A stretch of 45,148 nt of DNA, taken from the NCBI GenBank assembly GCA_017379935.1, contig JAFNVC010000030.1:1-45148 (forward strand), given 5' to 3'. This document shows, piece by piece, positions 6,265-19,199 of the stretch. Below the pieces are notes generated by a model. That model made no database searches. It saw only the letters and a program-made list of their open reading frames with translations, and was not told where the DNA came from. Source of the DNA: Clostridia bacterium. GTDB taxonomy: Bacteria > Bacillota > Clostridia > Oscillospirales > Acutalibacteraceae. Numbering within the stretch: position 1 is the first letter of the stretch; the number at the start of each line of letters is the position of its first letter. The translations under genes and the position numbers were made by a program.

Positions 6265-6293
6265 ATGCACTCCTTTTCAGGGGTGCATTTTTT
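6265..6293 (+). terminator. Intrinsic terminator of the trmN6-rsmI operon
   Basis: Stem ATGCACTCC (6265-6273) with GGGGTGCAT (6280-6288), nine pairs including one G-U, loop of six, followed by a T-run to 6293. Confidence 0.9.
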
Positions 6294-6408: not shown

Positions 6409-8430
6409 ATGGCACATTTTATTTTTTCTGCATTCTGTGATGAAGCGGGAGAAGCTACAATCGGCGGTCAGATGGCTGCCTGTAAACTTAACGGAATTTC
6501 TCATATGGAGCTCAGAGGCTTCGGTAAGGAGCTTAATATCAATATCTTGTCCGTAGAGCAGGCCAAAGAGATGAAGGCTGAAATCGACAAAGAGGGTATG
6601 AAGGTTTCTTCTATCGGCTCAGGCTACGGCAAAATTAACATAAAGGATGATTTTGAGCCTCATTTTGAAGCTTTTAAAAATACGGTTGAGGTTGCTAAGA
6701 TTCTCGAAGCAAAATATATCCGTATGTTCAGCTTTTTCTTTGACGAGGGTGACGATCACTCTCAGTACAGAGATGAGGTTATCCGCCGCGTAAAGGCAAT
6801 GGTTGACTATGCTGATGAGCACGGACTTATCTGCTGCCACGAGAACGAAAAAGGCATTTACGGTGATACCGCAGAGCGCTGTCTCGACGTTCTTGAGGCT
6901 TGCGGCGGCAAGCTCAGAGCGGTTTTTGATCCTGCAAACTTTATCCAGTGCGGTGTTGATACCGTAAAGGCTTACGATATGCTTGAGGATTATATTGAGT
7001 ATTTCCACGTCAAGGATGCGCTTTATGACAGTGCCGAGGTTGTTCCTGCAGGTCAGGGTGACGGCAGACTTGTTGAAATTCTTAAAAGATTTGATAAGCG
7101 CGAGCAGGTTGCAATTCTTTCGCTCGAGCCTCACCTCAAGGTGTTTGACGGTCTTTCAAATCTCGAGACTGATGATGAGACTGCGAAAGCTATGAAGGTT
7201 CATACCTATGCAACTCACGCTGATTCCTTCAAGGCTGCTGCTGATGCAATGCACGCTGTTGCCGAGGAGGTACAGCCTATCCGCTTCGGTATCATCGGTA
7301 TGGGTAATATGGGTACGGCACACGCCAGAAACTTCCTCAACGGTGATGTCAGAGAAATGCGTATTACAGCTGTGGCTGATATCGTTCCCGAAAAGCTTGA
7401 ATGGTCCGAGAAAAACCTCCCGTGGGCAAAGAGATATAATTCCGCAACTGAGCTTATTGAAAGCGGCGAGGTTGATGCGGTAATTATCTGTGTTCCGCAT
7501 TATTATCATCCTCCGCTTGTTGTTGAGGCGCTTAAAAACGGACTTCACGCGGTTTCTGAAAAGCCTGCAGGTGTTTATACAAAGCAGGTACGCGAGATGA
7601 ATGAATTCGCGGCAAAGCAGGATAAGACCTTTGCGATGATGTTTAATCAGAGAACTAACTGTGTTTACAGAAAAATAAAAGAAATTGTTGACAGCAAGGA
7701 ATACGGTGAAATCCGCCGTGTAAACTGGATTATTACTGACTGGTACCGTACCCAGGCTTATTATAATTCAGGCGGATGGCGTGCAACATGGGTCGGCGAA
7801 GGCGGCGGCGTTCTTCTCAATCAGTCACCGCATCAGCTTGATCTCTGGCAGTGGATCTGCGGTATGCCGTCAAAGATCCGTGCTTTCTGCCATGAGGGCA
7901 AGTGGCACGATATCGAGGTTGAGGATGACGTTACAATCTACGCTGAGTATCCCAACGGCGCTACGGGCGTATTTATCACAACAACGGGTGACTATCCGGG
8001 CTCAAACAGATTTGAAATCACAATGGATAAAGCAAAGCTTGTTTGCGAAAACGGTAAAAAAATCACCCTGTATGAGCTTGAAGAGTCTCTCAGCGAAAAT
8101 ATTGTAAACTGTAAAAACGGTTTTACCGATATTGACGTGAAAGCAATTGATGTTGAAACCGACGGAATCAACGACCAGCATACAGGTGTTCTCAATGCCT
8201 TTGCAGATCATATTCTCTTCGGTTCTCCGCTTGTTGCGAACGGTGAAGAGGGTATCCGCGGACTTATGATTTCAAATGCAGCTCACTATTCAAGCTGGAC
8301 AGGTGAGACTGTTGAGCTTCCGATTGACGAAGAAAAGTATTATGAGCTTCTTATGAAGAAGGTTGCTTCATCTAAGGCAAAGGAAGACATTATTTCTGTT
8401 GTTAATGAGGATATGAGCAGTACGTTTTAA
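6409..8430 (+). CDS. Fused xylose-isomerase-like TIM barrel and Gfo/Idh/MocA oxidoreductase
   Basis: A single 673-residue frame joins two enzymes. Residues about 1-285 form an AP-endonuclease-2/sugar-epimerase TIM barrel with four likely metal ligands: Glu145 (CCHENEKG), Asp174 (VFDPANF), His200 (YFHVKD) and Glu240 (LSLEPH). Residues about 289-673 form an NAD(P)-dependent oxidoreductase with Rossmann motif GMGNMG (297-302), the EKP motif (384-386) and NQSPHQLD (471-478), where His475 is the likely catalytic base. The order suggests coupled isomerisation (or elimination) and oxidation/reduction of one sugar. It starts after an AAAGGAG site and heads an operon for mannonate and KDG breakdown. 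Substrate is not deducible; the usual uronate isomerase uxaC is absent here. Confidence 0.85.
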   Translation: MAHFIFSAFCDEAGEATIGGQMAACKLNGISHMELRGFGKELNINILSVEQAKEMKAEIDKEGMKVSSIGSGYGKINIKDDFEPHFEAFKNTVEVAKILEAKYIRMFSFFFDEGDDHSQYRDEVIRRVKAMVDYADEHGLICCHENEKGIYGDTAERCLDVLEACGGKLRAVFDPANFIQCGVDTVKAYDMLEDYIEYFHVKDALYDSAEVVPAGQGDGRLVEILKRFDKREQVAILSLEPHLKVFDGLSNLETDDETAKAMKVHTYATHADSFKAAADAMHAVAEEVQPIRFGIIGMGNMGTAHARNFLNGDVREMRITAVADIVPEKLEWSEKNLPWAKRYNSATELIESGEVDAVIICVPHYYHPPLVVEALKNGLHAVSEKPAGVYTKQVREMNEFAAKQDKTFAMMFNQRTNCVYRKIKEIVDSKEYGEIRRVNWIITDWYRTQAYYNSGGWRATWVGEGGGVLLNQSPHQLDLWQWICGMPSKIRAFCHEGKWHDIEVEDDVTIYAEYPNGATGVFITTTGDYPGSNRFEITMDKAKLVCENGKKITLYELEESLSENIVNCKNGFTDIDVKAIDVETDGINDQHTGVLNAFADHILFGSPLVANGEEGIRGLMISNAAHYSSWTGETVELPIDEEKYYELLMKKVASSKAKEDIISVVNEDMSSTF

Positions 8431-8448
8431 CAGTACAGGGGTATGCTT

Positions 8449-9462
8449 ATGAGAGTTTCTGTTGTAGGCTGTGGCGGAGTGTCAAAGAGTCATCTGACTG
8501 CTTTGAGTGAAATGGAAAATGTTGAAATTTCCTCCGTCGTTGATATAAAAAAAGACCGTGCTGATTCTGCGGCAAGCAGGTATAATTGTAAAGCCTATTA
8601 TGATTTTGATTCAATGCTTGAAGAGGATAAGCCCGATTGCATACATATCTGCACTCCGCATTATCTTCACGCGGATATGGCGGTCAAGGCTCTCAATCGG
8701 GGGATCAATGTCCTGTGCGAAAAGCCCTGCGCAATCACCGCAGAAGGTCTTTCGAGAATAAGGCTTGCCCGTCTTATGAGTGAGGCTCAGTTCGGAGTAT
8801 GCTTCCAGAACAGATATAACGAGTCCGTTCTTTTGATAAAGAGGCTTATCGAAAAAGAAGAATACGGCAGTGTTATCTCAGCCCGTGCTATGGTTCACTG
8901 GGAACGTAATGAAGACTATTACAGCGATGACTGGCACGGAACGCTGGAAAAGGAAGGCGGAGGAGTCGTTGTTAATCAGGCGATTCATACTCATGACCTG
9001 CTCCGATTTCTTGTCGGCAAGAATATAAAAGCGGTAACCGCACATGTCTGTAACGATCATCTGAAGGGCGTTATAGAGGTCGAGGATACTGTAAATGCGT
9101 TGTTTGAATTTGAAGACGGCGTGAAGGCAATCTACAATGCGACAACAGCGTTTTCGGATAACCTCCCGGTGCTTATTGATGTTATCTGCGAAAAAGCAAC
9201 TCTTCGCATTGAAGGGGATAACGCTTATGTTATAACAGACGGTGATATCCGACAGCTTCATATTGCGGATAATACAGGCTTTACAGGAAAAAATTATTGG
9301 GGTAAGGGTCATACATCGCTTATCAGTGATTTTTATGACTGCCTCCTCAGCGACAGAAAATTCCCGATTGATGCCATTGAGGGCGGAAAAGCGGTTGAAG
9401 AATTTCTGGCGATATATAAATCTTCCGAAACGGGAGAAAAGGTGCTTTTGAAAAAGGAGTGA
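8449..9462 (+). CDS. Gfo/Idh/MocA family sugar dehydrogenase
   Basis: A 337-residue NAD(P)-dependent oxidoreductase, usual length for the family. The N-terminal Rossmann domain has the VVGCGGVSKSH motif, then the CEKPC (EKP) motif near residue 91, and the second domain carries GGGVVVNQAIHTHDLLRF with the probable catalytic histidine. The NQxxHxxD pattern is the same as in the fused upstream protein, so the two may act on related substrates in opposite redox directions. I place the start at the second in-frame ATG (8449) because the AGGGG ribosome site at 8435-8439 is too close to the ATG at 8443. It lies 18 bp after the fusion gene and 4 bp before uxuA. Confidence 0.88.
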   Translation: MRVSVVGCGGVSKSHLTALSEMENVEISSVVDIKKDRADSAASRYNCKAYYDFDSMLEEDKPDCIHICTPHYLHADMAVKALNRGINVLCEKPCAITAEGLSRIRLARLMSEAQFGVCFQNRYNESVLLIKRLIEKEEYGSVISARAMVHWERNEDYYSDDWHGTLEKEGGGVVVNQAIHTHDLLRFLVGKNIKAVTAHVCNDHLKGVIEVEDTVNALFEFEDGVKAIYNATTAFSDNLPVLIDVICEKATLRIEGDNAYVITDGDIRQLHIADNTGFTGKNYWGKGHTSLISDFYDCLLSDRKFPIDAIEGGKAVEEFLAIYKSSETGEKVLLKKE

Positions 9463-9466
9463 TTTT

Positions 9467-10540
9467 ATGCAAATGACTATGAGGTGGTTCGGCAAGGAGA
9501 AGGATACTGTCTCTCTTGAGCAGATCCGTCAGGTGCCGGGCGTTGTGGGGGTTATTCCCGCACTTCATGCTTTGCCTGCAGGCGAAGCATGGCCGCTTGA
9601 TATGATTATGGATATGAAGGCTGAAATCGAGGCGGCAGGTCTTACGATGGAGTGCATAGAGAGCGTTAACGTTCACGAGGATATCAAGCTCGGAGCTCCC
9701 ACAGCTGATATGTATATTGAAAATTATAAGACAAGCATCAGAAATCTTGCAAAAGCAGGAGTAAAGGTTATCTGCTATAACTTTATGCCCGTTTTTGACT
9801 GGACAAGAACTGATCTTGCGATGGATATGGGTAACGGCGCTACCTGCCTGAGCTATAACGGTGTTCAGGTTGAGGGCAAGAGCCCCGAGGATATGTTCCG
9901 TGAGATTGATGACAATTCCAACGGCTATGCAATGCCGGGCTGGGAAACCGAGCGTATGGGTGAAATCAAGGAGCTTTTCGAAAAATACAAGAATATCACA
10001 GCTGACGATATGTGGAATAATCTTAAGCATTTCCTTGAAGAGATCATTCCCGTTTGTGAGGAATGCGACGTCAGAATGGCTATTCATCCGGACGATCCGC
10101 CGTGGGACATCTTCGGACTGCCGAGAATCATCAAGAATATTGAGGATATCAGAAAGTTCCTTAAGCTTGTCGATTCTCCGTATAACGGACTTACCTTCTG
10201 CACAGGCTCACTCGGTGCAAGTGCAAAGAATGACCTGCCTGCGATGATCCGTGAGGTTGGTGACAGAATTTATTTTGCACATCTTAGAAACGTTCAGATT
10301 CGTGAAAGCTGGTTTAACGAAACCTCACATCTTTCCTCAGACGGATCTCTTGATATGTACGAGATAGTTAAGGCTTTGCAGGATGCAGGCTTTGACGGAT
10401 ATATCCGTCCTGATCACGGCAGAATGATCTGGGGTGAGGTTGCCCGACCGGGCTACGGACTTTATGACCGCGCACTCGGTGCGGCATATCTTAACGGTCT
10501 CTGGGAGGCTGTGGAAAAATCAAACAAAACGGAGGCATAA
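9467..10540 (+). CDS. uxuA: Mannonate dehydratase
   Basis: Dehydrates D-mannonate to 2-keto-3-deoxygluconate (KDG). The 357-residue product matches the Firmicutes length of this family. It starts MRWFGKEKDTVSLEQIRQ, the characteristic UxuA opening, and has the metal-site segments MAIHPDDPPWDIFGLPRI (about 204-221), FCTGSLGA, FAHLRNVQ and the C-terminal DGYIRPDHGRMIWGE with the conserved histidine and aspartate. An AAGGAG site precedes the ATG. It sits 4 bp after the Gfo/Idh gene and 2 bp before the SDR gene, fixing the operon's role as uronate degradation. Confidence 0.95.
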   Translation: MQMTMRWFGKEKDTVSLEQIRQVPGVVGVIPALHALPAGEAWPLDMIMDMKAEIEAAGLTMECIESVNVHEDIKLGAPTADMYIENYKTSIRNLAKAGVKVICYNFMPVFDWTRTDLAMDMGNGATCLSYNGVQVEGKSPEDMFREIDDNSNGYAMPGWETERMGEIKELFEKYKNITADDMWNNLKHFLEEIIPVCEECDVRMAIHPDDPPWDIFGLPRIIKNIEDIRKFLKLVDSPYNGLTFCTGSLGASAKNDLPAMIREVGDRIYFAHLRNVQIRESWFNETSHLSSDGSLDMYEIVKALQDAGFDGYIRPDHGRMIWGEVARPGYGLYDRALGAAYLNGLWEAVEKSNKTEA

Positions 10541-10542
10541 TT

Positions 10543-11394
10543 ATGACAGAGCATAAAAGTCTTAAAGATAAAGTAGCCGTTATTACAGGCGGCGGCGGTG
10601 TCCTTTGCTCAGGCTTTGCGAAAACACTCGCAAAGCAGGGGGTAAAGGTTGCTGTCCTTGACCTTAACGAGGCGGCGGCGCAGGCTGTTGCTGACGAAAT
10701 CAATGCAGACGGCGGTACAGCTATTGCTGTCGGCTGTAACGTGCTTGAAACCGAAAGTATGCAGAAGGCGAGAGATATCATTGCTGAGAAGCTCGGCACC
10801 TGCGATATTCTTCTCAACGGTGCAGGCGGTAATAACCCCAAGGGTACGACCACAAAGGAGACACTCGAAAAAATCGACCTCATCGAAAAGGATGAGAATG
10901 TAAAAACCTTCTTTGATCTTGACCCTCAGGGTATTTCCTTCGTTTTTAACCTTAACTTCCTCGGAACGCTTATTCCGACTCAGATTTTTGCACGAGATAT
11001 GGCTATGAAGGATGACAGCTGTATTATTATGGTAACTTCAATGAACGCCTTCCGTCCGCTTACGAAAATTCCGGCATATTCTGCAGCAAAGGCGGCTGTC
11101 GCTAACTTTACTCAGTTTATGGCTGTCCATTTTGCTGAAATGGGAATCCGTGTCAATGCCATTGCACCCGGCTTCTTCTCAACACAGCAGAATAAGGCGC
11201 TTCTCTGGAACGAGGACGGCACACCTACCGCAAGAACGGGCAAGATTCTTGCCGCAACTCCGATGGGACGCTTCGGTGAGCCTGAGGAGCTTTCAGGTGC
11301 GCTTCTCTTCCTTTGCGATAAGGAATATTCGGGCTTTGTGACAGGTACAACAATTGCGGTTGACGGCGGCTTCAACGCTTATTCGGGCGTATAA
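10543..11394 (+). CDS. SDR-family D-mannonate oxidoreductase (fructuronate reductase)
   Basis: A 283-residue short-chain dehydrogenase. It has the cofactor motif VITGGGGVLCSGFAKTLA (about 13-30), NGAGGNNPKG in the position of the NAG motif, and the catalytic Ser...YxxxK pattern (MVTSMNAF ... IPAYSAAKAAV). The C-terminal GGFNAYSGV fits a sugar-acid SDR. Between uxuA and a KDG kinase, the most probable reaction is NAD(P)H-dependent interconversion of fructuronate and mannonate, as for the SDR UxuB/YjmF of Bacillus-like bacteria, which is unrelated to E. coli UxuB. The ATG has a GGAGG site and starts 2 bp after uxuA. Confidence 0.87.
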   Translation: MTEHKSLKDKVAVITGGGGVLCSGFAKTLAKQGVKVAVLDLNEAAAQAVADEINADGGTAIAVGCNVLETESMQKARDIIAEKLGTCDILLNGAGGNNPKGTTTKETLEKIDLIEKDENVKTFFDLDPQGISFVFNLNFLGTLIPTQIFARDMAMKDDSCIIMVTSMNAFRPLTKIPAYSAAKAAVANFTQFMAVHFAEMGIRVNAIAPGFFSTQQNKALLWNEDGTPTARTGKILAATPMGRFGEPEELSGALLFLCDKEYSGFVTGTTIAVDGGFNAYSGV

Positions 11395-11415
11395 TCTTTG
11401 AAAGGACAGTTGATT

Positions 11416-12513
11416 ATGGATTTGAAATTAAGACCGCAGGAAGAATGCGCGTTTGATATGATTTCACTCGGCGAGGTTATGCTTCGACTTGATCCGGGCG
11501 ATTCAAGAATAAAAACCGCTCGCGAATTCCGTGTATGGGAAGGCGGCGGAGAATATAACGTTGCGAGAGGTCTTCGTCGTTGCTTCGGAATGAAGACGGC
11601 TATCGTAACAGCTCTGGCTGATAACGAGGTCGGCAGACTTGTCGAGGATTTTATGCTTCAGGGCGGTGTTGACGTTTCTCTTGTTAAATGGGCAAAGTAT
11701 GACGGTATAGGCAGAACTGTACGTAACGGACTGAATTTCACCGAAAGAGGCTACGGCATCCGCGGTGCTGTCGGTGTATCGGACAGAGGTAATACAGCCG
11801 CATCACAGCTCAAGGCAGGCGATATCGACTGGGATTATATCTTCGGTACTCTCGGTGTCAGATGGCTTCATACGGGCGGTATCTTTGCCGCACTTTCGGA
11901 TACAACTGCAGAGGTTGTTATTGAGGCAGTTAAAACTGCAAAAAAATACGGTACGATCGTTTCCTATGACCTTAACTACCGTCCGTCACTCTGGAAGGAT
12001 ATCGGCGGCAAGGAAAAGGCACAGCAGGTCAATAAGGAAATTGCAAAATACATCGACGTAATGATCGGCAACGAGGAGGATTTCACAGCCTGCCTCGGTC
12101 TTGAGGTTGAAGGTAATGATGAAAACCTCAAGGAGCTTAATCTTGACGGCTACTATAAGATGATTGAAAATGCAGTTAAGGTTTATCCGAATTTCAAGGT
12201 TATTGCTACAACACTCCGTACCGTCAAGACTGCTACAGTCAACGATTGGAGTGCAATCTGTTGGGCAGACGGTAAGATCCATAAGGGTATGGAGCTTCCG
12301 GGACTTGAAATTTTTGACCGCGTCGGCGGCGGCGACAGCTTTGCGTCGGGACTTGTTTACGGTCTTATGACAACCGGTGACGCTCAGACAGCAGTCAACT
12401 ACGGCGTTGCTCACGGTGCACTTGCAATGACAACCCCCGGTGATACCTCAATGGCAAGTAAAACAGAGGTTGAACGTATTGTCAGCGGTGCAGGCGCACG
12501 AGTTCAGAGATAA
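11416..12513 (+). CDS. kdgK: 2-dehydro-3-deoxygluconokinase (PfkB family)
   Basis: Phosphorylates KDG to KDPG with ATP. The 365-residue ribokinase-fold protein has the N-terminal ISLGEVMLRLDPG start, the substrate-region EGGGEYNVARGLRRCFG (PfkB signature 1) and the C-terminal RVGGGDSFASGLVYG signature 2 with the catalytic aspartate and anion-hole glycines. I use ATG 11416, which has AAAGGA at 11401-11405; the upstream TTG at 11398 has no ribosome site. Specificity for KDG is inferred from its place between uxuA and the KDPG aldolase; the protein is slightly longer than many KdgK. Confidence 0.88.
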   Translation: MDLKLRPQEECAFDMISLGEVMLRLDPGDSRIKTAREFRVWEGGGEYNVARGLRRCFGMKTAIVTALADNEVGRLVEDFMLQGGVDVSLVKWAKYDGIGRTVRNGLNFTERGYGIRGAVGVSDRGNTAASQLKAGDIDWDYIFGTLGVRWLHTGGIFAALSDTTAEVVIEAVKTAKKYGTIVSYDLNYRPSLWKDIGGKEKAQQVNKEIAKYIDVMIGNEEDFTACLGLEVEGNDENLKELNLDGYYKMIENAVKVYPNFKVIATTLRTVKTATVNDWSAICWADGKIHKGMELPGLEIFDRVGGGDSFASGLVYGLMTTGDAQTAVNYGVAHGALAMTTPGDTSMASKTEVERIVSGAGARVQR

Positions 12514-12527
12514 GGAGTTAGTATAAA

Positions 12528-13178
12528 ATGGATAAAGAAAGAATTTTAACCAGAATTCAGGATTGCGGTATCGTCGCAGTTGTACGTGCAGAAAGCACAG
12601 ATAAGGCCGAGCGTATCGTTGACGCCTGTATGGAAGGCGGAGTTGCGGCTATTGAGCTTACCTTTACCGTTCCTCACGCCGATAAGGTTATTGAAGAGCT
12701 TGCAAAGAAATATGATGAGAACGATATCATTCTCGGTGCAGGAACCGTTATGGATCCGGCAACAGCACGTATCGCAATGCTCAGCGGTGCTCAGTATATC
12801 GTCAGCCCCTACCTCGACCTTGAAACTCTCAAGATGTGTAACCGTTACCGCGTTGCTATGATGCCGGGTATTATGACGGTACGCGAGGGTGTTATGGCTA
12901 TGGAGCACGGTGCAGACATCCTGAAGGTTTTTCCGGGTGATCTTTTCGGACCGAAAATCATCAAGGATATCAGAGGCCCTATTCCGTATGCAAAAATGAT
13001 GCCTACGGGCGGTGTTGATGTCAACAATGTCGGTGAATGGATTAAGGCGGGTGCAGTGGCTGTCGGTGCAGGCTCATCGCTTACCGCAGGTGCAAGCACT
13101 GGCGACTACAAGAAAATTACAGAAACAGCAAAGCAGTTTGTTGCTAACATCAAGGCAGCAAGAGCTGAGCTTAAATAA
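12528..13178 (+). CDS. kdgA: KDPG/KHG aldolase
   Basis: Class I aldolase that splits 2-keto-3-deoxy-6-phosphogluconate to pyruvate and glyceraldehyde-3-phosphate, the last step of the operon. The 216-residue protein shows the conserved IVAVVRAES start with Arg20, Glu43 in IELTFTVP, the phosphate-region GAGTV (70-74), and the Schiff-base lysine Lys133 in ILKVFPGD. The MMPTGGV and VGAGSSL glycine motifs follow. It has an AAGGAG site and follows kdgK by 14 bp. obg begins only 19 bp after its stop with no terminator between. Confidence 0.94.
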   Translation: MDKERILTRIQDCGIVAVVRAESTDKAERIVDACMEGGVAAIELTFTVPHADKVIEELAKKYDENDIILGAGTVMDPATARIAMLSGAQYIVSPYLDLETLKMCNRYRVAMMPGIMTVREGVMAMEHGADILKVFPGDLFGPKIIKDIRGPIPYAKMMPTGGVDVNNVGEWIKAGAVAVGAGSSLTAGASTGDYKKITETAKQFVANIKAARAELK

Positions 13179-15826: not shown

Positions 15827-17749
15827 CTATTCAGCTCTGATGTAAACGCACATTTCGTTTTCACCGCGATTTGCCCATTTATAATACGGTATGAATTTCA
15901 GCTTGACATCGGATTTTTCAGCTTCTTTAAAGGTTTCATAAAGACTTTCACAATCTTTTTCACGGTATCCTTCAGCAATAATATATTGCCCGTCAAGAGA
16001 AAAAGAAGTGTTCTTATCAATGCTAAGCATCTGCAAGTCTGCTCCGTTGTCAACCTCTTCAAGACAATAAATAAAAGGACCACGTGTGACAGCAATTTTT
16101 CCTATATTCGCTCTCACACGGTTTGAGCACTTTATCATTCTGACTGATATTTCAAACTGAATATCAATCTGTGTTTCATCAAAGATTTTAAAATATGCAT
16201 ATCCGTTACGGATTTCGCACTTGTGTGAAAATGTATATGAGTCACACCATTTGGGAATTCGCACAGCAAGTGTAAATTCTTTTTCCGGGAAAATCCGAAC
16301 GCAGATCTTGCCGATTGATAAATAATCGGACAGGATTTCGAGTCTTCCCTTACTGCTCGTAATCTTAGCTCCGATATACTGATGAATATAGACTGTACTG
16401 TCGTTTTGCGTGCAGCAGTATTCACCGATTGAGGAAATAAGCCGTGCGACATTCGGCGGACAGCAGGCGCATCCGAACCATTTCTGACGGGTCGGTTTTA
16501 TATGTCTTTTTCTTTCGTCCTTATGTGAAGCCTCGGGTAAGACCTCGAGAGGGTTTGCATAGAAAAAGCTTCTGCCGTCCTCAGACATACCGGAAAGAAC
16601 TGTGTTGTATAATGCCCGTTCTACGGTGTCGGCAGTATCAGAATCGGGAGCGATTTCAAGCATCCGTCGGGCGAAAAAAATCAGGCCGACAGATGCACAG
16701 GTTTCGCTGTACGCAAGGTCGTTCGGAAGATCGTAATCAAAAGAAAAAGCCTCACCGAGCGCGGTTGAGCCTATACCGCCCGTGATATACATTTTTCTGT
16801 TAATGATATTGCTTAAGATTTTCTGACAGGCGGTGCTGAGCTCGTCGTCGCGGTATCGCTTGGCAATATCAGCCATTCCGCTGTAAAGATAAACGCCTCT
16901 AACAGCATGACCGACAGCCTCGTGCTGATGCCGCGGCTCGCAGTGAGCCTGATTATAGTGGTAATTATCCTCTACGGTGGTTCGCCCGAGAACCGTATCA
17001 TAGTAATACGGCTTTTTACCTCTTTCATTTATGAAGAACCTTGCCGTTTCAAGATACTGCCGATTCAGTGTAACGTCATACAGCTTGACTAAAGCCATTT
17101 CGGCAATTTCGTGGCCGGGATAACCTTTGATCTTTGTCTCACCGAAGGTTTCGCAGATAAGGTCAGCAAAACGGCAGGCAGCATTCAGAAGCCTGCGGTC
17201 TCCGGTTGAATTGTAAAAGCTTATTGCCGCCTCTGTCAGATGCCCGAAGCAGTAAAGCTCGTGAAAATCCTTAAGGTTAGAAAAAATTCCGTCTCGGTTA
17301 TTGATAATATACAGCGTGTCAAGATAACCGTTTTCCATCTGAGAGCTACAGATTAAATCAATAATATCCTCAGCCTTTTTCTGCAGTACGGCATCGGGAT
17401 GAGAGGAAAGTGAGTAGCCGACAGCCTCGATCCATTTGTATACGTCGCTGTCCTGAAAAACCCAGCCGTGAAAGGCACATTCGTCAGCGTTCGCTTCATC
17501 ATAATGCCATTTGTCGGCAGGGTAGACGGGCACATCCTCACCGTTTGACAGCTTTTTTACAATATCAGCCGCCTTAATAAAATTTGAAACGGAATAGCTT
17601 GCTTCTGCACCGTCAATGCGGTCATGCAAAGCTTCGTACTGGTAGGGTATTACCTGAGTCCTGACAAGCTCCTGCTTCTGTCTCCAGAATCGGTCGGTTA
17701 TTTCGATGCTTTTAAGCGGTATGTATTCAGAAAATAGTGTTGTATCCAT
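15827..17749 (-). CDS. GH127 glycoside hydrolase (beta-L-arabinofuranosidase-like)
   Basis: A retaining glycosidase of the former DUF1680 family; characterised members release beta-L-arabinofuranose from plant hydroxyproline-rich glycoproteins. In the 640-residue product the residues of the Bifidobacterium HypBA1 active site line up with matching spacing: Glu333 (acid/base), Glu349 and Cys351 (SETCAS), Cys429 and Cys430 (GCACCPPNV); the cysteines bind zinc and one is the nucleophile. No signal peptide, so it is cytoplasmic and acts on imported oligosaccharides, matching the MFS transporter upstream. I prefer ATG 17749; a GTG at 17767 overlapping the MFS gene is also possible. Confidence 0.9.
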   Translation of the reverse strand: MDTTLFSEYIPLKSIEITDRFWRQKQELVRTQVIPYQYEALHDRIDGAEASYSVSNFIKAADIVKKLSNGEDVPVYPADKWHYDEANADECAFHGWVFQDSDVYKWIEAVGYSLSSHPDAVLQKKAEDIIDLICSSQMENGYLDTLYIINNRDGIFSNLKDFHELYCFGHLTEAAISFYNSTGDRRLLNAACRFADLICETFGETKIKGYPGHEIAEMALVKLYDVTLNRQYLETARFFINERGKKPYYYDTVLGRTTVEDNYHYNQAHCEPRHQHEAVGHAVRGVYLYSGMADIAKRYRDDELSTACQKILSNIINRKMYITGGIGSTALGEAFSFDYDLPNDLAYSETCASVGLIFFARRMLEIAPDSDTADTVERALYNTVLSGMSEDGRSFFYANPLEVLPEASHKDERKRHIKPTRQKWFGCACCPPNVARLISSIGEYCCTQNDSTVYIHQYIGAKITSSKGRLEILSDYLSIGKICVRIFPEKEFTLAVRIPKWCDSYTFSHKCEIRNGYAYFKIFDETQIDIQFEISVRMIKCSNRVRANIGKIAVTRGPFIYCLEEVDNGADLQMLSIDKNTSFSLDGQYIIAEGYREKDCESLYETFKEAEKSDVKLKFIPYYKWANRGENEMCVYIRAE

Positions 17750-17753
17750 ATTA

Positions 17754-19199
17754 TCAATCCCACTCACAGCCGGTTACGGTATCCATATCGATACCCTTGG
17801 TGTCGTGCGTTTTTGAAACAAGAGTAATCAAAGCGGCAATGAAACCGGGCACAAGAAGCGCAAAAGAAACGATTCCGGTTACGCTGTTTCCGATAAATGT
17901 TATAAGCGGAAGACTTACGACATAAGAAATTGCTACGCCGATGGCGGTAACAATAAACTGTGCCGACATTGTTGAGGAGCGCAGGTTCGTCGGTGACGAT
18001 TCGCCGATCATCATAATAATAACGTCGTTGGTTGAATAAAAGCTTCCGACGAAAGCACCGCAAAGAAAGCCTACGATATAGGGATTCAGTGCCATATTAG
18101 ATCCGATTGTAAAGCCGATAAAAGCCAGAAGACAGTTTGTTGCAGTTGTGATTGCCGCCGCTTTACGTCCTTTTGAGTCGGAGATAAAGCCCATAATAAC
18201 CTGTGAAACAGCACAGCCGACAGGGAACATAAATAACGCCGCTGTAACAGGACCTACGCTGACCGCATTCATTACTTCTTTGCCGAGATTTGCGAACAAC
18301 CCGTTTTTAACGTAATTCTGCGCGTAGCCGTAGGACATTATAACCTGATAGTTGATAGTACCGATAAAGCCGAGATTTGCGAGCGAAGAAGTGATGTAAA
18401 GCCAGCGAAGCTGCTTGTGCTTCATCGCAAATTTCAGCGCAGGGATAAGTCCGCCCTGACTGTTCTGTGAGTTCTTTTGTTCTGCAATTCTTTCTTCATC
18501 AGTCATATGCAGGTAACGAAGTCTTGATTCGATAAATGAGTCGGTTTCTCTTGCTGTGAGTAGTGCAATAAAGCTCGTTACGAGTCCGACGATAGCGGGG
18601 ATAAAATAAACCAATCTCCATTCTGAAGCCTCTGTCATAAGCAGACGTCTCAACAGCGGAACAAGCATTACAGACATATTGGCGATAAATTTGATTGAGG
18701 AATAAACCTTACCGCGGTGGTCGGTAGGGGAGGATTCCATTATGTAAACCACGTGCATATCGTGCGGTATGAAGAACTGTACCATACAAGCGCCGATAAA
18801 ATAAAGGAAAATGTTGTTTGAAAGGAAGATAACAAGAAGAGCAAAGCTCATTCCGAAGGTGTTGATTATAAGAAATTTCTTTCTGCCCCAACGGTCGGCA
18901 AGCGGTCTGTATAAAAGTCCGAAAGCCTGGAAGGGTACAACAAGAATACCCAGTATATCTAGCAGACCTACGGAGCTTTCGCTTGTGAAAAGGTCGTTTG
19001 CAATTTCTGTTTTCATCAGAGTGCCTATCTGTGATGCGATTTCGTCCGTTGCATAGATAAGCGTTATGATAAAAACAAGGTAAGCGAAATAATAAGACTT
19101 TTTCGGCTTAGCTTTTTCTTTTTCCCATTTCAGGATTTCTTTTTCCCGCTTTTGATGAAGCTTTTTAAGCTTTTCGGGTGTAATCGCTTTTGTTCCCAT
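17754..19199 (-). CDS. MFS transporter (sugar or glycoside)
   Basis: A 481-residue major facilitator with about twelve membrane segments. A long charged N-terminal tail (1-35, Lys/Glu rich) precedes the first helix. The MFS signature between helices 2 and 3 is RPLADRWGRKKFLI and the equivalent in the second half is GFISDSKGRKAA. It lies between a PHP phosphoesterase gene (11 bp upstream) and a GH127 glycosidase gene on the same strand, so uptake of an arabinose-containing or related oligosaccharide is inferred. The start at 19199 follows TAAAGGAG. Confidence 0.87.
   Translation of the reverse strand: MGTKAITPEKLKKLHQKREKEILKWEKEKAKPKKSYYFAYLVFIITLIYATDEIASQIGTLMKTEIANDLFTSESSVGLLDILGILVVPFQAFGLLYRPLADRWGRKKFLIINTFGMSFALLVIFLSNNIFLYFIGACMVQFFIPHDMHVVYIMESSPTDHRGKVYSSIKFIANMSVMLVPLLRRLLMTEASEWRLVYFIPAIVGLVTSFIALLTARETDSFIESRLRYLHMTDEERIAEQKNSQNSQGGLIPALKFAMKHKQLRWLYITSSLANLGFIGTINYQVIMSYGYAQNYVKNGLFANLGKEVMNAVSVGPVTAALFMFPVGCAVSQVIMGFISDSKGRKAAAITTATNCLLAFIGFTIGSNMALNPYIVGFLCGAFVGSFYSTNDVIIMMIGESSPTNLRSSTMSAQFIVTAIGVAISYVVSLPLITFIGNSVTGIVSFALLVPGFIAALITLVSKTHDTKGIDMDTVTGCEWD

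Follow-up and report, generated by a model that had tools for sequence, protein, structure and literature searches.

A recurring TIM barrel–dehydrogenase fusion at the head of a Clostridia uronate operon, a proposed entry enzyme for non-hydrolytic glucuronide cleavage

The closest described systems to the protein studied here are redox pathways of sugar cleavage. In the levoglucosan pathway, four separate proteins acting on a neutral anhydrosugar, LgdA, LgdB1, LgdB2 and LgdC, carry out oxidation, elimination, hydration and reduction (PMC7676230, PMC10066097), and the hydratase LgdB2 is partly bifunctional and helped by Mn2+ (PMC7676230). The O-glycoside β-eliminase AtOGE of Agrobacterium (8BVK) has the metal and base residues H132, H134, D163, H189 and E233, and together with a putative hydratase, AtHYD, it follows the same logic of oxidation, elimination, hydration and reduction (PMC10628242). 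The C-glycoside deglycosylation (CGD) enzymes, DgpB-C and relatives, act on a 3-oxo-glycoside as two-subunit complexes with a lid domain, Glu/Asp/His/Lys/Glu manganese ligands, the first of which is followed, two residues later, by the catalytic His (PMC8563793). GH4 enzymes are reported to do such redox cleavage with one chain (PMC7676230). Here we describe a protein in which a triosephosphate isomerase (TIM) barrel is fused to a Gfo/Idh/MocA dehydrogenase, encoded in a stretch of 45,148 nucleotides from a gut Clostridia bacterium of the Acutalibacteraceae (assembly GCA_017379935.1, contig JAFNVC010000030.1; this whole stretch is called the window below). As a first-pass annotation of the window had proposed, the fusion heads a uronate operon, being followed by a second Gfo/Idh enzyme, UxuA, UxuB, a probable 2-keto-3-deoxygluconate (KDG) kinase and Eda (Table 1).

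In our proposal, glucuronides are cleaved by a non-hydrolytic pathway whose entry enzyme is the fusion; we give this reading a probability of about two in three. Many relatives make separately the two enzymes that are fused here, and the pair probably cuts glucuronide bonds by oxidation and elimination, not by hydrolysis. Drugs, bile pigments, hormones and plant phenols enter the gut as glucuronides, and β-glucuronidases are usually held responsible for setting them free. If the proposal is true, the oxidative route would escape counts of glucuronidase genes and perhaps also glucuronidase inhibitors. The fusion physically couples two steps and thereby names a TIM partner of the glucuronide dehydrogenase, and it would make the order of the steps testable with one purified protein.

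The fusion protein and its recurrence

The fusion is a single unbroken frame of 673 residues, with its ATG at 6409 and its end at 8430 (+). Pfam places AP_endonuc_2 (PF01261) at residues 24–242 (E 1e-19), GFO_IDH_MocA at residues 291–410 (E 9e-20) and GFO_IDH_MocA_C3 at residues 420–544 (E 8e-26), and thus bears out the earlier reading of a TIM barrel joined to a Gfo/Idh/MocA enzyme. The likely active-site residues named in that reading (Glu145, Asp174, His200, Glu240 and His475) are all at the positions given, and its motifs GMGNMG and EKP are at 297–302 and 384–386. An AlphaFold2 model, built from 69 aligned proteins, has two well-folded parts (mean predicted local distance difference test, pLDDT, 90.1; predicted TM-score, pTM, 0.78). 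The halves are joined by one helix, residues 270–288, and the first strand of the dehydrogenase begins directly afterwards at 291, so that the model predicts no long floppy linker between them.

Fused frames were found in 16 genomes of a set of 98 that includes the genome of the window and 18 members of its genus. They occur in 14 of these 18, counting the genome of the window itself, and outside the genus in two other genera of the same family, one of the rows ending at a contig end. A scan of public genomes with one peptide pattern, [CL]HENE[KRG]xIY, gave 583 loci, of which the best 80 were analysed: 24 have a fused frame matching both halves (two of these shorter than full length), 26 have separate TIM and dehydrogenase genes within 3.5 kb, and 30, contig ends counted, have a TIM gene without a dehydrogenase within that distance. 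The record titles of the 80 loci name Clostridia, other Bacillota groups or simply ‘bacterium’, and many are from ruminant gut samples. Because the same fused frame recurs across genomes and public loci, an assembly artefact was rejected. A search of the phylum at E 1e-60, aimed at fusions beyond the order, matched 17 of 299 genomes, with that of the window as the sole unbroken fusion; the full-length rows of G248, G275 and G372 each carry a stop, and G248 proved on inspection to be two adjacent genes. No report of this fusion is among the literature matches listed, which are titles and abstract openings of open-licence papers. The fusion is real and recurring, and it lies within an already known kind of chemistry.

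The first-pass annotation had suggested looking for fusion homologues and for the halves occurring together elsewhere, and both were found. The TIM half is present in 47 of the 98 genomes, 46 of which also have the dehydrogenase, and the dehydrogenase is alone in two genomes; presence of the halves, of UxaC and of UxuA was called at thresholds set at visible gaps, and related genomes are not independent counts.

More than one fusion event is likely in the history of these genes, as is indicated by tree counts and by two types of joint. In the tree of the TIM half the fused state needs four changes, at least three of them forced by well-supported branches; in that of the dehydrogenase half, from which separate rows of 350 residues or fewer were excluded, it needs three, at least two of them forced. 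Comparison A2 covered 21 of the 24 fusions, along with 27 of the 56 rows for TIM and 20 of the 29 for the dehydrogenase. The joint in other fusions reads ...xAMHxVA-EEVQPIRFGIIG or near it. In L135, L137, L138 and L144 the joint is longer and places a Met directly before the dehydrogenase part, as if the former start codon of the dehydrogenase had been retained. Among the separate pairs, the dehydrogenase gene follows the TIM gene by at most 60 bases in ten, four of them in frame. Fission, instead of repeated fusion, could also have given this pattern.

The four loci with the longer joint form a second fused clade, in which the fusion is followed by a third TIM barrel, an MBOAT O-acyltransferase and further genes in place of the uronate genes (L135, 9995-17490). 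Two genes upstream of the window fusion resemble, by size and order, a pair of about 275 and 207 residues seen in relatives; the pair precedes both a lone TIM gene with UxuB (L120, L125, L128, L129) and the fusion (L092, L093, L094, L097), as if the fusion had come to occupy the site where the TIM gene formerly stood.

Solved relatives and conserved residues of the two halves

The closest solved relative of the dehydrogenase half is 8tdi, an entry deposited under the name P2B11 glucuronide-3-dehydrogenase (E 3e-107; the next best is 2e-31). This match spans residues 3–368 of the 387-residue half and 2–391 of the chain. Identity between the two is 47.8% over 391 aligned columns; 8tdi and the second Gfo/Idh enzyme of the operon are 25% identical. 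In the family, 87 positions are conserved (in 96% or more of 54 rows), and 8tdi has the conserved residue at 79 of them; G297 and G299 of the NAD motif, K385 and H475 are common to it and the fusion. K385, the Lys of EKP, and H475, the His of HQLDLW, are likely to be catalytic; we take them to be the catalytic Lys and His of the superfamily. The two proteins are thus homologous over nearly their whole dehydrogenase length, but the deposited 405-residue chain of 8tdi aligns with the dehydrogenase half alone, whereas the window protein adds a TIM barrel. On this homology we propose that the C-terminal half is a glucuronide 3-dehydrogenase dependent on nicotinamide adenine dinucleotide (NAD).

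The best solved relatives of the second Gfo/Idh enzyme are 3q2i (E 4e-35) and 3q2k (E 1e-34), ahead of 8tdi (E 5e-27). We take 3q2i and 3q2k to be UDP-GlcNAc-uronate 3-dehydrogenases (WlbA); if this is right, both Gfo/Idh enzymes come from groups that act on the 3-hydroxyl of glucuronic acids. Homologues of the second enzyme are within 6 kb of 17 of the 24 public fusions. The earlier suggestion of a second Gfo/Idh enzyme that would provide a closing reduction is supported.

For the TIM half, solved relatives at E 0.01 are AsbF (1e-6), Art22 (4e-5) and 8ro4, a ‘2-hydroxy-3-keto-glucal hydratase’ (5e-4). The 8ro4 match is limited to residues 126–207, and it is absent at E 1e-6 in the search with a profile of the TIM family, where Art22 and AsbF stay on top. 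Conservation was followed in an alignment of 25 rows, with 24 relatives from whole-protein searches, and in one of 81 rows that includes the public loci found by the pattern. E145, D174, H200, K202 and E240 are invariant in both, Glu145-Asn-Glu147 is present in every row of both, and, leaving gaps aside, R36, K75, R105 and H242 do not vary either. Residues 144–151 are invariant in the public loci partly because the loci were selected by that peptide pattern; in the 25-row set E145, N146 and E147 do not vary, but H144 does (in L053). The invariant basic residues (R36, K75, R105, K202 and H242) would suit an acidic sugar, and E145, D174, H200, K202 and E240 are likely metal ligands, with E147 as the likely base.

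By motif order only, these five residues would fit the manganese set of CGD enzymes of the DgpB-C type (PMC8563793). In contrast to that type, the TIM half is a single barrel fused to a dehydrogenase, and where those enzymes carry their catalytic His it has Glu147. Every gene of the operon was assigned by Pfam to a family other than the CGD β subunit, for which no model was searched. The His-x-His metal and base motif of AtOGE is likewise not in the TIM half, which has Glu145-Asn-Glu147 in the aligned rows and belongs to another branch of PF01261.

The TIM half could instead be a ketose or keto-uronate epimerase of the D-tagatose 3-epimerase or TM_0416 type, with the dehydrogenase acting on free uronates or inositols. 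Such epimerases belong to the same Pfam family, E145, D174, H200 and E240 are presumably the expected metal ligands of that class as well, and at seven of the 30 public loci that have a TIM gene and no nearby dehydrogenase, the TIM gene is near UxuB. Yet no epimerase is among the solved relatives of the TIM half, while the same database readily gives epimerases for the third TIM barrel next to the second fused clade, which is of epimerase type by its solved relatives (L135), and the TIM half goes together with the dehydrogenase in nearly every genome that has it. The inositol pathway of Thermotoga, which the first-pass annotation had offered as a precedent, also found no support: TM_0416 (2zvr), which we take to be the epimerase of that pathway, was in the searched database, though it matched neither the TIM half nor its profile. 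We therefore consider an epimerase unlikely. The other precedent offered there, cleavage of keto-glycosides by a Gfo/Idh dehydrogenase with a TIM-barrel lyase, is the best supported, both by the homology to 8tdi and by the genes that accompany the two enzymes in relatives. Keto-glycoside cleavage, with glucuronides as substrates, is on these comparisons the most likely function.

The proposed pathway and the C3 eliminase of relatives

In the proposed pathway, the C-terminal half would transfer a hydride from carbon 3 of a glucuronic-acid glycoside to NAD+, giving a 3-keto-glucuronide. The TIM barrel, with a divalent metal, would take the acidified proton of carbon 2 and expel the aglycone or the next sugar from carbon 1, and would probably rehydrate the 1,2-enone to 3-keto-glucuronate. 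Carbon 3 would then be reduced, either by the second Gfo/Idh enzyme or by the fused dehydrogenase running in reverse, to give glucuronate and regenerate NAD+. Glucuronate would be converted to fructuronate by UxaC, encoded elsewhere, and UxuB, UxuA, KDG kinase and Eda of the operon would take fructuronate to pyruvate and glyceraldehyde-3-phosphate. The fusion, its recurrence, its accompanying genes and the homologies are observed. That the substrate is a glucuronide we infer from what the solved homologue is called, and we likewise infer how elimination and hydration are divided and what the second Gfo/Idh enzyme does.

Relatives supply a further component. In 14 of 38 relatives' loci (a set that excludes L090 and L091, which have no TIM gene) a second PF01261 TIM barrel, here called C3, is a recurrent neighbour. 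One C3 protein has matches to 8bvk (E 8e-26) and, at 1e-17 to 1e-16, to the 8tcs, 8tcd and 8tct chains, and the pattern of the C3 family, H127, H129, D160, H186 and E227 in 14 rows, is the His-x-His/Asp/His/Glu arrangement of AtOGE (PMC10628242). By hhalign, C3 is remotely related to the TIM half (probability 95%, E 2e-8). Ten of the 26 separate-gene loci contain all four of the dehydrogenase, C3, the TIM barrel and a second Gfo-type gene; this count includes L156, whose C3 is a piece of 96 residues, and excludes L151, where two dehydrogenase pieces look like one broken gene. The kit is like the Lgd pathway as described, with its Gfo/Idh 3-dehydrogenase, PF01261 eliminase and hydratase and second Gfo/Idh reductase (PMC7676230). 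The window operon shares with an Lgd-type module the two Gfo/Idh enzymes per cluster, and differs from it in having two activities on one chain, a single such TIM barrel and uronate genes downstream. Within an Lgd-type scheme the TIM half would be a hydratase-like member.

At the public loci, C3 and the fused state were not seen together. C3 is within 6 kb of 18 of the 26 separate pairs and of none of the 24 fusions (Fisher 9e-8), and at loci flanked on either side by 4 kb or more the counts are 9 of 13 against 0 of 18 (4e-5), with both p-values inflated by the relatedness of the loci. Within 4 kb of the 24 fusions, no gene had C3 as its best match with two C3 queries, even at E 1e-3. The window operon likewise has no separate eliminase and hydratase TIM barrels: besides UxuA, the TIM barrel of the fusion is its only PF01261 protein in Pfam. 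The elimination would therefore have to be done by the TIM half or by a C3 paralogue in trans. The genome of the window has such paralogues on contigs C25 (E 1e-25) and C2 (3e-22), matched by another query at 2e-26 and 2e-32; they stand in two other TIM-plus-Gfo modules.

The TIM step may be a hydration, as in its most similar kin, or an elimination followed by hydration, as the missing C3 would suggest; with C3 absent near the fusions, the fused TIM half may do both. A stronger form of this is a single-chain redox glucuronidase, in which oxidation at carbon 3 is followed by elimination of the aglycone and hydration of the enone in the TIM half, and carbon 3 is re-reduced with the same NAD, by the fusion alone or with the product of the next gene. 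Such an enzyme would have had more than one origin among gut Clostridia and would have made C3 dispensable. We hold this only tentatively, as possible and somewhat doubtful; if it is true, two domains would do what GH4 enzymes, as they are described, do with one chain.

Side by side with these clusters, other arrangements of the same parts were seen. L186 (6210-10376) and L187 (5783-9884), from genomes of 6–7 Mb in the same phylum, have the dehydrogenase and C3 with one or two further Gfo-type proteins; since the TIM half is not nearby, C3 can partner the dehydrogenase alone. In the genome of the window, the module on contig C2 (L177 7909-10908) has a C3-like TIM barrel, a second TIM barrel with the 8ro4 hydratase among its solved relatives, and a Gfo protein, and that on contig C25 (L178 3921-5918) has an IolE-like TIM barrel and a Gfo protein; with these two extra modules, this bacterium may have several oxidative deglycosylation routes. 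A further cluster (L106 5691-16091, L110, L112, L115) comprises C3, the dehydrogenase, nucleotidyl-transferase-like and PHP-like proteins, the TIM barrel, KDG kinase, and GNAT-like, glycyl-radical (PFL-like) and radical-SAM proteins, the families having been scanned on one or two members per gene cluster.

Uronate genes, substrate and the surroundings of the operon

The first-pass annotation had remarked that the operon does not supply the usual uronate isomerase, uxaC. This is true of the operon, but not of the genome, where uxaC was found at G000:C27:160036-161424 (E 5e-206), and a uxaC-free genome was accordingly rejected. The start of this uxaC overlaps the end of a LacZ-like GH2 gene by 4 bases (L176 9028-13508, C27).

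From the missing gene a bypass had been proposed, in which the TIM half would work with both Gfo/Idh enzymes in an oxidise–rearrange–reduce cycle that opens an unnamed substrate straight into fructuronate or mannonate and replaces uxaC. The operon does hold the steps after fructuronate and not uxaC, and none of the 24 fused public loci has UxaC within 6 kb, a point in favour of the bypass. Within the genus, moreover, UxuA tracks the fusion (14 of 14 genomes with it, at E 1e-155 or better; none of the four without it, where the match is absent in G003 and G010 or weak in G009, 4e-6, and G012, 6e-5, these four being 68 to 86% complete), while UxaC is in all 18, in pieces in G010, whatever their fusion status, and so is not tied to the operon there. 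Such genus-wide presence also fits service to another substrate, for example galacturonate. Across the 98 genomes, by contrast, UxaC is present in 44 of the 47 that have the TIM half, the genome of the window among them, and in 17 of the 51 others. It also shares a cluster with the TIM gene in some relatives: inside the cluster in 5 of the 38 loci (L056, L067, L077, L078, L079) and within 6 kb in 6 of the 80 public loci (L136, L142, L158, L159, L169, L170). With the nearest solved relative of the dehydrogenase named for glucuronides, the bypass did not hold up, and we regard it as unlikely.

UxuA was found in 38 of the 47 genomes with the TIM half, against 14 of the 51 others. In the genome of the window, which is 85% complete, there is no GH67 or GH115 match; six GH2 places match the β-glucuronidase model, none above the cut-off, and they may still act on glucuronides.

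Instead of glucuronides in general, the substrate of the same chemistry might be a glycoside of a different uronic acid, a C-glycoside or a defined oligosaccharide. A GH130 gene directly follows the fusion and second Gfo gene in L096 (4529-5545), and others are in clusters of TIM, dehydrogenase, UxuA and UxuB in L060 (13496-14485, by Pfam) and L062 (5368-6447, by gene cluster); the invariant basic residues of the TIM half, too, would fit any acidic sugar. The downstream genes, on the other hand, are UxuB and UxuA, the glucuronate and not the galacturonate branch, and in L136, L142 and L170 the order is UxaC, UxuA, UxuB, TIM, C3, dehydrogenase, dehydrogenase, with a divergent AraC-type regulator ahead. 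A substrate other than glucuronides therefore seems to us unlikely. The GH130 neighbours are mannoside-phosphorylase-like and hint at a substrate of mannosyl-glucuronate type.

Several observations weigh against glucuronide cleavage by the fusion. The glucuronide role of 8tdi is taken from the name of the deposited entry, an identity of 48% leaves the substrate unfixed, so that galacturonides or other uronides are possible, and in the tree by which P2B11 is placed, the outgroup is a single row and the branch to P2B11 is long. The TIM half is distant from every solved protein (best E 1e-6), and its Glu147 occupies the base position that is His in AtOGE and the C-deglycosylation enzymes. A lone TIM gene accounts for 30 of the 80 public loci, and UxuB is within 6 kb of seven of these (L114, L120, L121, L125, L127, L128, L129), which also fits a role nearer to fructuronate. 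A match to uxaC is missing in three genomes with the TIM half (G063, G070, G078) and one to UxuA in nine, some of the genomes being incomplete. Finally, the window operon has no AtOGE-like eliminase, and the C3 paralogues of its genome are distant ones only. A nearer C3-like protein is encoded elsewhere in 9 of the 14 fusion-bearing genomes of the genus (E 4e-36 to 5e-44, and one 4e-77), which speaks for elimination in trans; the genomes without one are that of the window, G007, G011, G013 and G014. The closest fusions come from both groups, those of G014, G013 and G011 being 96%, 93% and 91% identical and those of G002, G006 and G004, which have the nearer C3, 90–91%, and most of these six assemblies are incomplete.

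The features of the operon are listed in Table 1. From the fusion to Eda, the gaps between the genes are 12, 4, 2, 3 and 14 bases. The PfkB kinase has 18 NCBIfam matches, each of them below its cut-off; the top two are a KDPG-aldolase/sugar-kinase fusion and a KDG/KDGal kinase.

Table 1. Features of the uronate operon in the window
Feature	Position	Strand	Basis
Terminator-like hairpin upstream of the operon, 10-pair stem then TTTTT	6265..6288	+	consensus scan only
Fusion protein, 673 aa, TIM barrel and Gfo/Idh/MocA dehydrogenase	6409..8430	+	frame, Pfam, recurrence, AlphaFold2
N-terminal half, residues 1-285, AP_endonuc_2 TIM barrel, proposed 3-keto-glucuronide eliminase/hydratase	6409..7263	+	Pfam, invariant columns, CGD metal-set motif match
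C-terminal half, residues 290-673, NAD-dependent dehydrogenase, proposed glucuronide 3-dehydrogenase	7276..8430	+	homology to 8tdi
Second Gfo/Idh/MocA oxidoreductase, 339 aa, proposed 3-keto-glucuronate reductase	8443..9462	+	Pfam; solved relatives 3q2i, 3q2k
UxuA mannonate dehydratase	9467..10540	+	PF03786 E 9e-158; above NCBIfam cut-offs
Short-chain dehydrogenase/reductase (SDR)-type D-mannonate oxidoreductase (fructuronate reductase, UxuB)	10543..11394	+	NF006132, 426 bits vs cut-off 281
PfkB sugar kinase, probable KDG kinase	11398..12513	+	PF00294
KDPG/KHG aldolase (Eda)	12528..13178	+	PF01081; above NCBIfam cut-offs

Terminator-like sites of the type found upstream of the operon number 6 in the window against 6.6 in shuffled sequence and so are no commoner than chance. 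On the opposite strand, at 15827-19199 (-), genes for a GH127 β-L-arabinofuranosidase and a major facilitator superfamily (MFS) sugar transporter point towards the uronate operon.

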